Below are positions 48,400 through 53,582 of a stretch of DNA of 64,000 nucleotides, in pieces. The DNA comes from Neisseriaceae bacterium PsAf (GTDB lineage Bacteria > Pseudomonadota > Gammaproteobacteria > Burkholderiales > Neisseriaceae). The position numbers were made by a program, and so were the translations under genes. The notes below the pieces were generated by a model that saw only the letters and a list, made by a program, of their open reading frames with translations, ran no database searches and was not told the DNA's origin. Every line of letters begins with the position of its first letter. Within the stretch, counting starts at the first letter, position 1. The stretch spans positions 1-64,000 of the forward strand of contig WNLJ01000030.1 in the NCBI GenBank assembly GCA_017114885.1, written 5' to 3'.

Positions 48400-50997
48400 T
48401 TAATGGATAATTGGCTCTGAATCATTCAATTCTTCTGTTGCTTCTTCTTTGGTTTCAGCAACTTTTTCCATACAAACCAAAGTCTCATCTTTATCCAAAT
48501 TAATAAGACGAACACCTTGTGCTGCTCGACCTGTTTCTCTAATCTGATTAACATGAGTGCGAATTAAAACTCCACCCGAAGTAATTAACATCACATCATC
48601 GGTCTCTTCAACCAGTGAAGCTGCCACAAGCATACCGTTACGTTCACCAGTATCAATCGCAATCACTCCTTGTTTGCCTCTATACCTCTTACGGTAACTA
48701 TCAACACTTGTTCTCTTGCCATAGCCATTTTGAGTTGCTGTTAAGACCATCGCCTCTTTATCCGTTTCTGGATGAGCTGCTAGCAAACTAATTACTCTTG
48801 CATCATCGGGTAACTTCATACCCCTCACCCCATGTGCTGTACGACCCACTGCCCTTACATCAGCCTCATCAAATCTAACCGCTTTGCCCTGATTAGAAAA
48901 TAACATGACTTCGTGTCGGCCACTGGTCTTGGCAACACCAACCAAACTATCTTCCTCAGATAAACTAATAGCAATAATTCCAGAACTTCTAGGATTAGAA
49001 AAATCCATTAATGATGTTTTCTTCACTGTCCCCAAACTAGTACACATGAATACGTATTCATCTCCTGTAAATTCCTTAACCGCCAAAATAGCACTAATGG
49101 TTTCATTTTCGGATAAATTTAATACATTAGTAACCGGTCTTCCCCTACTGGCACGACTACCTATTGGCAATTTATAAACTTTTATCCAATAACATTTTCC
49201 TAGTGAGGTAAAGCACAACAAATAATCATGAGTATTAGCCACAAAAAGTGTCTTAATAAAATCTTCTTCTTTAGTAACTGTTGCCTGCTTGCCTCTACCA
49301 CCTCTATTTTGGGATTGATAATCTTCAACTGGCTGTGCTTTGATGTACCCCGTATGTGATAGTGTTACTATCATTTCTTGAGGTGGTATTAAATCTTCAT
49401 CATCAATATCTCCACCAATAGGATCAATTTCTGTTTTTCTAGCATCGCCAAAATCTGTCTTGATTTGATTTAATTCATCACGAATAATTTCAGTAATACG
49501 CTCTCTCTTAGAGAGAATATCAATCAAATCCAATATAATTTCAACAACTTCCTTGTACTCAGAAATGATTTTATCTTGCTCTAGACCTGTTAATCTTTGT
49601 AAGCGCATATCCAAAATTGCTTGAGCTTGAACTTCGGATAAATGATAACCATCTGATTTTAAGCCAAAATCTTCACCAATTTCTTCTGGGCGAGATAAAT
49701 TTGCATCTACGCGCTCTAACATTGATTCCACTAGACTAGAACGCCAAGGTTTCGCCAACAAGGCTGACTTTGCTTCTGGCGGTGTCGCACTTGATTTAAT
49801 TAATTGAATAATTTCATCTACATTGGCAAGGGCTACTGCTAAACCTTCTAACACATGACCACGGTTACGTGTTTTTTTAAGCTCAAATACTGTTCTTCTA
49901 TAAACAACTTCTCGACGGTGTTTTAAAAATTCAACAATAAAATCTTTTAAATTAAGCTGTTTGGGATGTCCGTCGACCAACGCAATCATATTAATCCCAA
50001 AAGTATCTTGCAATTGTGTGAGCTTATACAATTGATTTAAAATGACTTCTGCATTTTCATTGCGCTTTAACTCAACAACAATACGAATCCCAGATTTATC
50101 TGATTCATCACGTAAATCAGAAACCCCTTCTATGCTTTTTTCTCTGACTAATACACCAATTTTCTCAACTAATTTGGCCTTATTCACTTGATAAGGAATT
50201 TCATCAATCACAATCGCTTCTCTATCCCCTGCTTTATGGAGAGGTTCTATATGCGCTTTACCGCGAATAACAACTCTACCACGACCAGTTCTATAGCCTT
50301 CTCTAACCCCTGAAATACCATAAATAGTAGCACCTGTTGGAAAATCAGGTGCGGGAATAATATCTATTAATTCATCAACAGATATGTCTTCATTATCTAA
50401 AACTGCCAAACAGCCATTAATTACTTCAGAAATATTATGCGGAGGAATATTCGTTGCCATACCAACTGCAATTCCTGAAGAGCCGTTAACCAATAATACC
50501 GGTATTTTAGAAGGCAAAACCACCGGCTCTTTTTCATTATTATCATAATTAGGAATAAAATCGACGGTTTCTTTATCTAAATCAGCTAATATTTCTTGAG
50601 CTATCTTATGCATGCGGATTTCAGTATACCGCATGGCCGCAGCCCCATCTCCGTCAATAGAACCGAAATTTCCTTGTCCATCGACCAACTGATAACGCAT
50701 GGTAAAATCTTGTGCCATTCTTACAATCGTGTCATAAACCGCTGTATCTCCATGTGGATGATATTTACCAATCACATCCCCCACAACCCTAGCTGACTTT
50801 TTAAAAGGTCTATTCCAGTAATTACTTAATTCATGCATCGCGAACAGCACCCGACGGTGTACTGGTTTCATACCGTCTCTCACATCAGGCAGCGCCCTAC
50901 CAACGATAACACTCATGGCGTAATCTAGATAAGACTGTTTCATTTCCTCTTCTAAACTAACTGGAAAAGTTTCTTTTGCAACAAATGGTTCTGACAT
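48400..50997 (-). CDS. gyrA: DNA gyrase subunit A
   Basis: GyrA cuts and rejoins DNA during negative supercoiling, with GyrB. The catalytic tyrosine is Tyr124 in [11 protein letters not shown]. The quinolone-resistance region reads YHPHGDTAVYDTIV, with Thr85 at the position of E. coli Ser83 and Asp89 at that of Asp87. The GyrA-box in the C-terminal pinwheel (QNRGGRGKQA) is intact, confirming GyrA rather than ParC. Starting at the ATG at 50997 it has 865 residues. An ATG-like start four codons earlier is weaker. It faces away from the small membrane-protein gene. Confidence 0.98.
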   Translation of the reverse strand: MSEPFVAKETFPVSLEEEMKQSYLDYAMSVIVGRALPDVRDGMKPVHRRVLFAMHELSNYWNRPFKKSARVVGDVIGKYHPHGDTAVYDTIVRMAQDFTMRYQLVDGQGNFGSIDGDGAAAMRYTEIRMHKIAQEILADLDKETVDFIPNYDNNEKEPVVLPSKIPVLLVNGSSGIAVGMATNIPPHNISEVINGCLAVLDNEDISVDELIDIIPAPDFPTGATIYGISGVREGYRTGRGRVVIRGKAHIEPLHKAGDREAIVIDEIPYQVNKAKLVEKIGVLVREKSIEGVSDLRDESDKSGIRIVVELKRNENAEVILNQLYKLTQLQDTFGINMIALVDGHPKQLNLKDFIVEFLKHRREVVYRRTVFELKKTRNRGHVLEGLAVALANVDEIIQLIKSSATPPEAKSALLAKPWRSSLVESMLERVDANLSRPEEIGEDFGLKSDGYHLSEVQAQAILDMRLQRLTGLEQDKIISEYKEVVEIILDLIDILSKRERITEIIRDELNQIKTDFGDARKTEIDPIGGDIDDEDLIPPQEMIVTLSHTGYIKAQPVEDYQSQNRGGRGKQATVTKEEDFIKTLFVANTHDYLLCFTSLGKCYWIKVYKLPIGSRASRGRPVTNVLNLSENETISAILAVKEFTGDEYVFMCTSLGTVKKTSLMDFSNPRSSGIIAISLSEEDSLVGVAKTSGRHEVMLFSNQGKAVRFDEADVRAVGRTAHGVRGMKLPDDARVISLLAAHPETDKEAMVLTATQNGYGKRTSVDSYRKRYRGKQGVIAIDTGERNGMLVAASLVEETDDVMLITSGGVLIRTHVNQIRETGRAAQGVRLINLDKDETLVCMEKVAETKEEATEELNDSEPIIH

Positions 50998-51190
50998 ATT
51001 TACTCTCAAAGACTAAAATAGGTATATTCTACCATATTCAGCCTATTACAAGGTACTTTTATCAAATGTCAGTTGCCATTTTTTGGCTTTTCTCTTACCA
51101 TTAACAAAACAAGCACCAAAGCATATAAACAGCTATTAAAAATAAAAACAATATAAAAATAAATCTACAAATCCAAGGATTGAAATTAGA

Positions 51191-51592
51191 GTGAAAGTCT
51201 ACGATTTTTTTGTCAGCACATCAAAACAATTTAATATTCGTTACGTCTTAAAGCAATACCTAATTGCCTTTTTGTTTTGTATGCTATTTTTATACTTGGT
51301 TTATGACTCCCTTGTAATGGCAAAAGACTCCAATCCCGTTTTAATATTATTTATTGGTGCTTGGTTTATTCTTAATACTTTATTGTTCCCTTTTGCTAGA
51401 TTTGCGTTGGACTCTATCATTAACTATGTAGTCACTGGCAACCAATTTAATCTTCCTAAAATTATTTCGCTTTTAGTTAAATTATTCTATCTAGCATTAT
51501 GTTGGGCGTATGCCATTGTGCTTGCACCAATTGGCATTATTTTTTACATAATCATCAAAATTCGAGGCAGTGATCGCGATTATTATTATTAA
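51191..51592 (+). CDS. small integral membrane protein of unknown function
   Basis: I do not recognise this 133-residue protein. It has three clear hydrophobic segments (about 24-43, 51-72 and 90-122), a short amphipathic start and a charged tail, IRGSDRDYYY. It begins with GTG. AAGGATTG lies upstream at a long spacing, so the start is tentative. It is flanked by gyrA (divergent) and the AT-rich DnaA-box region. No functional motif is visible. Confidence 0.65.
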   Translation: MKVYDFFVSTSKQFNIRYVLKQYLIAFLFCMLFLYLVYDSLVMAKDSNPVLILFIGAWFILNTLLFPFARFALDSIINYVVTGNQFNLPKIISLLVKLFYLALCWAYAIVLAPIGIIFYIIIKIRGSDRDYYY

Positions 51593-51644
51593 TTTTATTT
51601 TAAATAAACAAGCTCATTCGTTGTATTTATGAGAGCCAATAGCC

Positions 51645-51842
51645 TGTGTATAACTTTGTGAATAAACTGCTAAATAAATGAAAAATTTAGTTAAAAATAA
51701 AGTCAATTAATTTTAATTACTAACTTAACGTTCATGATAGAAATAATAAATATTTTTATTTTTCAATAGTTTATATATTTTAACCTGTTTATTTTTGTTT
51801 TTAGATTTGACAAATTTATTTTTCTTTTAACTTTGTGAATAA
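51645..51842 (+). promoter_or_regulatory. three DnaA-box matches around an AT-rich segment
   Basis: TGTGTATAA (51645-51653) and TGTGAATAA (51657-51665 and 51834-51842) match the DnaA box (TTATNCACA read on the other strand). All three have one orientation. The last two lie in a repeated 15-base unit, TAACTTTGTGAATAA (51651-51665 and 51828-51842). Between them lie about 160 bases of nearly pure A/T. This could be a replication-related or DnaA-regulated site. Confidence 0.4.
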
Positions 51843-51882
51843 TTTACACTTTCTTACAAAATTAGCTTATAAGAACTCATTT

Positions 51883-52983
51883 ATGTCTACAAAAAATATA
51901 TGGATTTTCTCATCAGTTATCGATAACTTTGGCGATGCAGGTGTTGCCTATAGAATTGCCCGTGAATTATCCTTCAATGAGGAATTCAGAATTTTTTTCT
52001 TCATTGATAATATCCCTACTTTAGCAATGCTTGAAAATTCACTCGCCCAAAATAATCAAAAACAAATTATACAAAATATTACTATAATTCCATGGGAGTC
52101 TACTTATCTTCTTGATTTACCCCTTCCTGACATCCTCCTTGAGATATTTGGTTGTTTTTCAGAAAAACCACTAGACAATCAAAAACTACAATTGATTCCA
52201 CAGATTAATATTGAGTATTTGAGTGCCGAAGATTGGACTTTGGATTTTCATTTAAAACCTTCTTTATCTGGAACACAGACAAAATTCTTTTATTTTCTTG
52301 GTTTTACTGAAAACAGTGGTGGGCTATTCATCGAAAAAAACTATTTAACAGAAGAATCAAGATTTAAAGAAAATGAATCTGAAATAGCCAATTTCATACA
52401 AAAATATCAAATCTCACTTGAGCCAAACAAAAAAATATTTTTTTTGTTTGGCTATGAATCAAATATATGGGATAAGTGGATTGACATTTGGAATCAACTT
52501 GATATTGATTATGAACTATGGATAGCTGGCAAAAAAACATTACATTCCATTACAAACAAAAAAATCAATACCCAAGCACTTCCATTTGTAAATCAAACGG
52601 ATTTTGATAAATTATTATGGTTGTCTGACATAGCCGTTGTCCGTGGTGAAGATAGTTTCATTAGGGCTCAACTTGCAGGAGTGCCTTTCTTTTGGCATAT
52701 TTACCCTCAAGAGAATCAATTTCATCTAAGAAAATTAAGTGCCTTTTGGAATAAAACTAAAACTTACTATGATTCTGAAATTTTCTTTCATCAGCAACGC
52801 TTATCGCTTGAACTAAACCAGGGCGTCCAACTTTCTAACAAAGAACGCTATATTAGCTGGAAAAAACTATTAGAAGATAAAAATAATTGGCAACAAAACG
52901 CACAATCATGGAAAAATTATCTATTTTCCCAATCCAGCGCCTATGAAAAATTAACACAGTTCATCAAAAAACAGTTAAAATGA
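51883..52983 (+). CDS. earP: EF-P arginine rhamnosyltransferase EarP
   Basis: EarP attaches rhamnose from dTDP-rhamnose to Arg32 of EF-P. It is a GT-B inverting enzyme of about 370 residues; this one has 366. The N-terminal WIFSSVIDNFGDAGVAYR contains Asp14 and Asp18, matching the catalytic-region aspartates of the family. The C-terminal VVRGEDSFIRAQLAGVPFFW contains Glu256 of the donor-binding motif, and IYPQEN follows. I chose the ATG at 51883, where the family homology begins. An in-frame GTG 16 codons earlier overlaps a DnaA-box match. Its substrate gene efp lies 38 bases downstream. Confidence 0.96.
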   Translation: MSTKNIWIFSSVIDNFGDAGVAYRIARELSFNEEFRIFFFIDNIPTLAMLENSLAQNNQKQIIQNITIIPWESTYLLDLPLPDILLEIFGCFSEKPLDNQKLQLIPQINIEYLSAEDWTLDFHLKPSLSGTQTKFFYFLGFTENSGGLFIEKNYLTEESRFKENESEIANFIQKYQISLEPNKKIFFLFGYESNIWDKWIDIWNQLDIDYELWIAGKKTLHSITNKKINTQALPFVNQTDFDKLLWLSDIAVVRGEDSFIRAQLAGVPFFWHIYPQENQFHLRKLSAFWNKTKTYYDSEIFFHQQRLSLELNQGVQLSNKERYISWKKLLEDKNNWQQNAQSWKNYLFSQSSAYEKLTQFIKKQLK

Positions 52984-53021: not shown

Positions 53022-53582
53022 ATGAAAACAGCACAAGAATTACGTGTAGGTAACGTTTTTATGGTTGGCAACGATGCAATGGTCGTACAAAAAACAGAAT
53101 ATAATAAGTCTGGTCGTAATGCTGCCGTGGTAAAAATGAAATTAAAGAATTTATTAAATGGTAACGTTACCGAATCAGTATATCGTGCAGACGATAAGTT
53201 AGATGATATCATTCTTGAAAAGAAACAATGTACCTATTCCTATTTTGCTGACCCTATGTATGTCTTTATGGACGAAGAATTCAACCAGTACGAAATTGAA
53301 GCTGACAACATGGGCGACAGTGTTCATTATATCATTGATGGTATGGAAGATATTTGTGAGGTCACTTTTTATCAAGGAAAAGCAATTTCTGTAGAACTGC
53401 CTACTATTATCGTAAGAGAAGTAGAATACACTGAACCTGCTGTTAAAGGTGATACATCAGGGAAAGTAATGAAACCTGCTACTCTAGTAGGTGGTTATGA
53501 AATTAGCGTTCCTGCTTTCGTAGAAAATGGGGATAAAATAGAAATTGATACTCGTACTAATGAGTTTAGAAAAAGAGCATAA
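53022..53582 (+). CDS. efp: elongation factor P
   Basis: EF-P enters the ribosome E-site and relieves stalling at polyproline. The 186-residue protein has three beta-barrel domains. The modified loop reads KSGRNAAVV with Arg32, the residue used by the EarP pathway (the Lys type would pair with EpmA). This matches the earP gene just upstream and is a clear case of enzyme and substrate in one operon. TAAGGATTATTT precedes the ATG. A UUCG-loop terminator follows. Confidence 0.98.

Follow-up and report, generated by a model that had tools for sequence, protein, structure and literature searches.

A DnaA box cluster upstream of earP in a Neisseriaceae bacterium, possibly a diverged copy of a DARS-like control element

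Why do three DnaA boxes lie close together between gyrA and earP in a bacterium of the family Neisseriaceae? The stretch of DNA analyzed here (64,000 nucleotides, referred to as the window) is located on contig C29 of a low-GC genome of 1,814,374 bases (1.81 Mb) in 32 contigs (G000). A first-pass annotation had pointed out the cluster and proposed a replication origin or auxiliary origin, a DnaA-titrating site or DnaA control of earP-efp as its function. DnaA regulates promoters, and the recharging of DnaA at chromosomal sites has been worked out in E. coli. The answer that we prefer, and consider slightly more likely than not, is that the cluster controls DnaA from outside the origin, as a diverged copy of a DARS-like element that part of the Neisseriaceae retains upstream of earP. 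The element combines DnaA and IHF sites and probably acts by adjusting how active DnaA, the replication initiator, is. This reading is based on the sequences, order, spacing and conservation of the boxes, the position of the IHF consensus in relatives and the location of the probable oriC elsewhere in the genome.

Results

DnaA boxes between gyrA and earP

An exact motif search bore out the initial description of three matches to TTATNCACA within 200 bases, all in one orientation (here the minus strand), two of them in an exact 15-bp repeat, around an A/T stretch. Boxes II/III and box D, numbered after the E. coli DARS sites, flank this A/T-rich stretch. The features are as follows, compared with G001, the one-contig genome (1.607 Mb) of a sister species of the same genus.

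51631..51842, plus strand: entire element, spanning the box I position through box D; orthologous position and spacing upstream of earP in relatives; apart from the boxes and the IHF-like site, the sequence is 59% identical to G001
51631..51639, plus strand: place of DARS box I, box lost; the sequence is GAGAGCCAA, and G001 has TTATTCGAA at exactly the same distance
51645..51653, minus strand: DnaA box II, TTATACACA, exact match; the same in G001 except for the free fifth base
51657..51665, minus strand: DnaA box III, TTATTCACA, exact match, 12 bp from box II; identical in G001
51761..51773, plus strand: IHF-like site TTTCAATAGTTTA with one mismatch, at +130 relative to the box I position (most relatives: about +120); 12 of 13 aligned bases identical in G001
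51834..51842, minus strand: distal DnaA box D, TTATTCACA, exact match; identical in G001 and at the same place in relatives
51651..51665, plus strand: exact 15-bp repeat TAACTTTGTGAATAA, first copy
51828..51842, plus strand: exact 15-bp repeat TAACTTTGTGAATAA, second copy
51883..52983, plus strand: earP (EF-P arginine rhamnosyltransferase), downstream gene; TIGR03837 at 291 bits, below the cut-off of 347; efp is next
53022..53582, plus strand: efp (elongation factor P)
48400..51009, minus strand: gyrA, divergent neighbor, named in the first-pass annotation and from a reading of its protein; a gyrA query found both earP and gyrA at locus L126

The element is intergenic, with a small ORF on one side and earP on the other, and lies outside the probable oriC. 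The interval between gyrA and the element holds an ORF of 133 amino acids with a hydrophobic appearance (51191-51592), whose counterpart in G001 has 136 amino acids (L072 10076-10486). Relatives of the window earP are found mainly in Neisseria and other Neisseriaceae. No E. coli DNA similar to efp was found. A 21-mer of the window, TGTGTATAACTTTGTGAATAA, recurs in another genus (L103, G004 contig C1, 181693-181713), away from the earP gene of that genome.

The number of boxes in the window is ordinary: five matches to TTATNCACA were counted, compared with a mean of 4.5 in shuffled sequences. Their proximity is less so, in line with the original claim. The genome-wide count is 138, and random placement of 138 sites gave three within 198 bp in 1.3% of the trials and the same clustering in one orientation in 0.34% (genome-wide), under a uniform placement in which A/T-rich patches are not modeled, so that neither percentage takes account of them. 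Two tandem copies of TGTGNATAA within 30 bases are present at a single place in G000 and a single place in G001, in each case just before earP. A chance cluster in A/T-rich DNA would be in keeping with the roughly 4.5 sites expected per 64 kb, but it was obtained in only 1.3% of the random placements, and the sister species and other genera have the same boxes at this place. This conservation makes chance so improbable that we give it almost no weight.

Location of the replication origin

The suggestion that the cluster is the main replication origin is not supported. No lasting switch of the GC skew from negative to positive was observed at 51.6 kb of contig C29. A probable oriC is instead located on contig C30 (L204/L205, about 53.8 kb), far from dnaA: two exact boxes lie just upstream of lpxC, and the skew changes from negative to positive around this gene. 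The dnaA gene is indeed absent from the window, as noted at first, and sits on contig C12. The dnaA locus was considered as an origin and rejected, since no exact TTATNCACA was found within about 5 kb of it in G000, and dnaA of G001 lies near a positive-to-negative skew change.

In sampled stretches of G001 the skew is negative or near zero between 320 and 900 kb; it is positive in those beyond 1120 kb and in those between 1 and 180 kb. Near the switch, at 965-966 kb, a very A/T-rich gap with four exact boxes separates a waaC-like gene from lpxC (L075 5068-6298; both genes named from a reading of their proteins). Within the probable oriC of G001 (L075 5466-6227; 965466-966227), a box pair 62 bp apart recurs 691 bp further on, as if duplicated. 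Judged from these sequences, oriC is probably located upstream of lpxC in both G000 and G001; in a further genome, G009, a dense box array lies upstream of lpxC, and L114 is the probable oriC of that genome. The earP element of G001 is found at 774.5 kb, about 190 kb from the skew switch, and the orthologous element of G018 lies near a positive-to-negative skew change; the distance between element and oriC differs between these two genomes. Although tandem boxes beside A/T-rich DNA would suit an origin or auxiliary origin at the window site, the missing skew switch, the assignment of a probable oriC to the region before lpxC in both G000 and G001, and the position of the element in G018 make this explanation very improbable.

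Conservation of the element upstream of earP

In boxes II, III and D, the free fifth base of box II is the sole difference between G000 and G001. Both genomes have the same CTT spacer, against 59% identity (141/238) in the rest of the intergenic region. The sister species keeps seven of the nine bases of box I, the box that is lost from the window copy. At least two exact boxes within 450 bp upstream of earP were found at 11 of 27 named loci and at 11 of 30 loci of relatives, two sets that have at least five loci in common. Fourteen of the 27 named loci, N. gonorrhoeae among them, have no exact box upstream; of the remaining two, one contains just one box and the sequence of the other stops 82 bases upstream. 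When triples with one mismatch are counted, six of the twelve genus labels in the family have the element before earP.

With one mismatch allowed, a recurring plan becomes apparent before earP: an inverted box I, box II at +14, box III a further 12 bp on and, as a rule, an IHF site around +120 together with a distal box around +200. The core lies 180-310 bp and box D 40-120 bp before the gene in relatives, and box II and box D are 176-190 bp apart in two-box loci. Some ruminant MAGs have a spacing of 13 instead of 14 between boxes I and II. Boxes I, II and III of both DARS1 and DARS2 of E. coli MG1655, the sites at which ADP-DnaA is recharged, are spaced at exactly 14 and 12 bp. PMC8682772 and PMC5742627 describe DARS sites as having three boxes whose spacing is the same from site to site, box I facing the opposite way to II and III, and DnaA head to head on I and II. 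Many relatives have such a triple in their earP and proS elements, whereas in the window copy boxes II and III are correctly spaced and the place of box I reads GAGAGCCAA. As the opposition of box I to box II marks a DARS, the window copy is not classed as one.

Genome-scale search for the core and its gene contexts

The core pattern TTANNCACA-N5-TGTGNATAA-N3-TGTGNAT was searched with up to three mismatches in the family and up to two in the order and the class; the IHF site and box D were left out of the pattern. It was found in 81 of 83 genomes of the family (143 matches, two or more in 42 genomes), a count that is partly circular because the earP loci and E. coli DARS had served as the source of the pattern. 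The reversed pattern gave four matches, and a shifted control with three bases added between boxes I and II gave 21 matches in 15 of the 83 genomes, some of them inside box arrays. The core was also present in 139 of 200 genomes of the order (reversed pattern, 0) and in 298 of 369 of the class (reversed pattern, 1). The window copy itself is five mismatches away and was not matched. One genome (G254) carries two cores 292 bp apart on contig C5 (L190 1501-1850) and another core pair on contig C14.

The hit in G000 is a second copy before proS on contig C4 (L143 3856-3888; C4 99355-99387), which is also present in G001. It has a weak box I, a perfect box II and a perfect IHF consensus at +121, and no box D within one mismatch. 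Between the two species box II alone is fully conserved in this copy, while box III and the IHF site are not clearly better kept than the rest. Neither copy in G000 is complete: the earP copy is without box I and the proS copy without box D.

The genes beside the core vary. Thirty family loci were assigned to proS (17), earP (7), gltX (4), mutS (1) and lpxC (1), and two family copies precede a ygfZ-like gene. Twenty loci of the order comprised seven at xseA, five at priA (three also with hemE), one at parE and seven at none of the tested genes; among 30 loci of the class, 13 were at priA (one also with hemE), one at xseA and 16 at none of the tested genes. The priA-adjacent loci are L214, L215, L218-L222, L236, L237 and L239-L242 in the class and L191, L194, L195, L197 and L198 in the order. 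The neighborhood of priA may be the older home of the element. Since the plan stays constant while the gene contexts vary, an action on DnaA is favored over the control of a single gene.

IHF site and distal box in relatives

The IHF consensus is WATCAANNNNTTR. An equivalent form, TAAnnnnTTGATW, is given in PMC8682772. From the sampled loci (30 family, 20 order, 30 class), near-duplicates and one locus that was too short were removed, leaving 23, 19 and 28. Counted from box I, an IHF consensus with at most one mismatch starts at +116 to +121 in 20 of 23 loci of the family, 14 of 19 of the order and 18 of 28 of the class; background windows of equal width gave 0.1 to 0.3 loci. Box D is found at +187 to +206 in 17 of 23, 12 of 19 and 22 of 28 loci, respectively. 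Taken together, 45 of the 70 loci have both features, 17 have one and eight, including L114, have neither. Whereas the IHF site is clear in these relatives, the window copy has a one-mismatch site at +130, which is common to G001 and whose assignment at 51761 is weak on its own because two further one-mismatch sites lie nearby.

The partners of such an element are encoded in G000: one full DnaA, an Hda-like protein at 187 bits (the cut-off of the Hda model is 195), IHF-alpha and IHF-beta, both of which pass one cut-off or more, and an HU-like protein that falls short of the cut-off.

Discussion

Several observations argue for a DARS-like element: the occurrence of the core in most genomes of the family, order and class with few reversed matches, its 14/12 geometry with an inverted box I identical to that of DARS1 and DARS2, the retention in G001 of boxes II, III and D within surroundings that are 59% identical, the IHF site and box D of relatives, both outside the search pattern, and the presence of DnaA, both IHF subunits and an Hda-like protein in G000. 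Against it count the lost box I, the five mismatches to the pattern and the weak IHF-like site that is 10 bp off, as well as the absence of box D from the proS copy, the 14 of 27 named earP loci without an exact box and the differing distance to oriC in G001 and G018. The published restriction of the DARS2 core also speaks against it, and a later review speaks partly for it: PMC4245941 calls this core specific to gamma-proteobacteria related to E. coli, while the review PMC5742627 names E. coli-proximal beta- or gamma-species. The conservation of DARS2 in some beta-proteobacteria is thus already in print. Searches of the literature on DARS in Neisseria, betaproteobacteria, Burkholderia and Pseudomonas and at priA, and on Neisseria DnaA boxes, with most subscription journals outside their scope, returned no such Neisseriaceae elements among the matches listed.

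By analogy with E. coli DARS2, from which we infer DnaA binding, IHF binding and nucleotide exchange, ADP-DnaA would assemble head to head on boxes I and II of the complete form, and box III would take a third DnaA. A bend introduced by IHF would lie between the core and the distal box D, and the resulting complex would release ADP, so that DnaA would be recharged with ATP for the next round. The window copy, having lost box I, may have a weaker or a different activity, and to judge from its sequence it may raise or lower ATP-DnaA.

The latter direction would correspond to a datA-like element, an explanation that we regard as unlikely but worth keeping in view. Boxes of one direction flanking an IHF bend would gather ATP-DnaA, promote ATP hydrolysis and lower initiation, and the loss of box I would have pushed the window copy into this role. 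The boxes of the window all point one way with an IHF-like site, albeit a weak one, between them, and along the box direction the distances from D to IHF and from IHF to III are 69 and 108 bp, compared with 65 and 97 bp for the presumed boxes 2 and 3 of E. coli datA. According to the review PMC5742627, the essential datA boxes likewise share one direction around a single IHF site, but the same review places the close pair (boxes 7 and 2) on the other side of that site. Moreover, relatives retain an inverted box I with exact DARS spacing, which is absent from datA, where the best match has five mismatches. The first suggestion of DnaA control of earP-efp has the conserved place before earP in its favor, and DnaA, perhaps with IHF, might tune earP transcription. 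We find this doubtful: the same plan precedes proS, gltX, mutS, xseA, priA, a ygfZ-like gene and others, sometimes opposite to the direction of the gene (priA). A scan of 51500-51900 returned no consensus promoter, which weighs little either way. As for the proposal of a DnaA-titrating site, conservation speaks for a DnaA site outside the origin, and the family to which the element belongs resembles DARS, a more specific role than titration. A decayed relic or a plain titrating site without nucleotide exchange would accommodate the lost box I, the weak and shifted IHF-like site and the box I of the sister species, with only seven of nine bases; it is distinctly improbable, since a dead relic would not predict intact boxes II, III and D in both species next to surroundings of 59% identity.

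If the DARS-like reading is true, the constant arrangement of core, IHF site and distal DnaA box would make DARS-type control widespread and provide a sequence handle for it in species without genetics, and a shared origin of DARS and datA would become checkable. A broader and decidedly tentative proposal, which we think will probably not hold in full, is that an old, mobile DnaA switch is widespread in gamma- and beta-proteobacteria. It would consist of a DARS core, an IHF site and a distal same-direction box (the datA-like half) and would have moved between priA, xseA, mutS, earP, proS and gltX contexts. DARS1, DARS2 and datA would be specialized derivatives, and loss of box I would be turning one of the two copies in this genus from reactivating to datA-like.

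Comparison with known systems

Like the window site, the Neisseriaceae oriC upstream of lpxC consists of DnaA boxes in A/T-rich intergenic DNA, but it carries the skew switch. In the window copy, DnaA boxes of one direction stand on either side of a weak IHF-like site, at distances similar to those around the IHF site of E. coli datA. The order differs: datA has box 7, box 2, IHF and box 3, with the close pair on the opposite side of the IHF site, whereas along the box direction the window has a single box, the IHF-like site and the pair. No DARS core was found in the datA region of E. coli; the best match has five mismatches.

DARS1 has the same 14/12 core as the element of relatives. No IHF consensus was detected from -200 to +420 of this site, and PMC5742627 states that it needs no other protein in vitro. 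DARS2 has, in common with the relatives, an inverted box I followed by II and III at 14 and 12 bp, an intergenic location and an IHF consensus downstream of the core, while its gene context is different and its box I is missing from the window copy. In the distal region, relatives have a same-direction box near +200, whereas the corresponding part of DARS2 contains Fis sites, and its box at +211 is oppositely oriented. The same IHF scan located sites at +93 and +109 in DARS2, 3 bp apart, in agreement with the separation of 3 bp given for IBS1 and IBS2 in PMC4245941. The IHF site thus starts at +109 in DARS2, at about +120 in relatives and probably at +130 in the window copy and its genus, places about one helical turn apart that would fit a bent complex.
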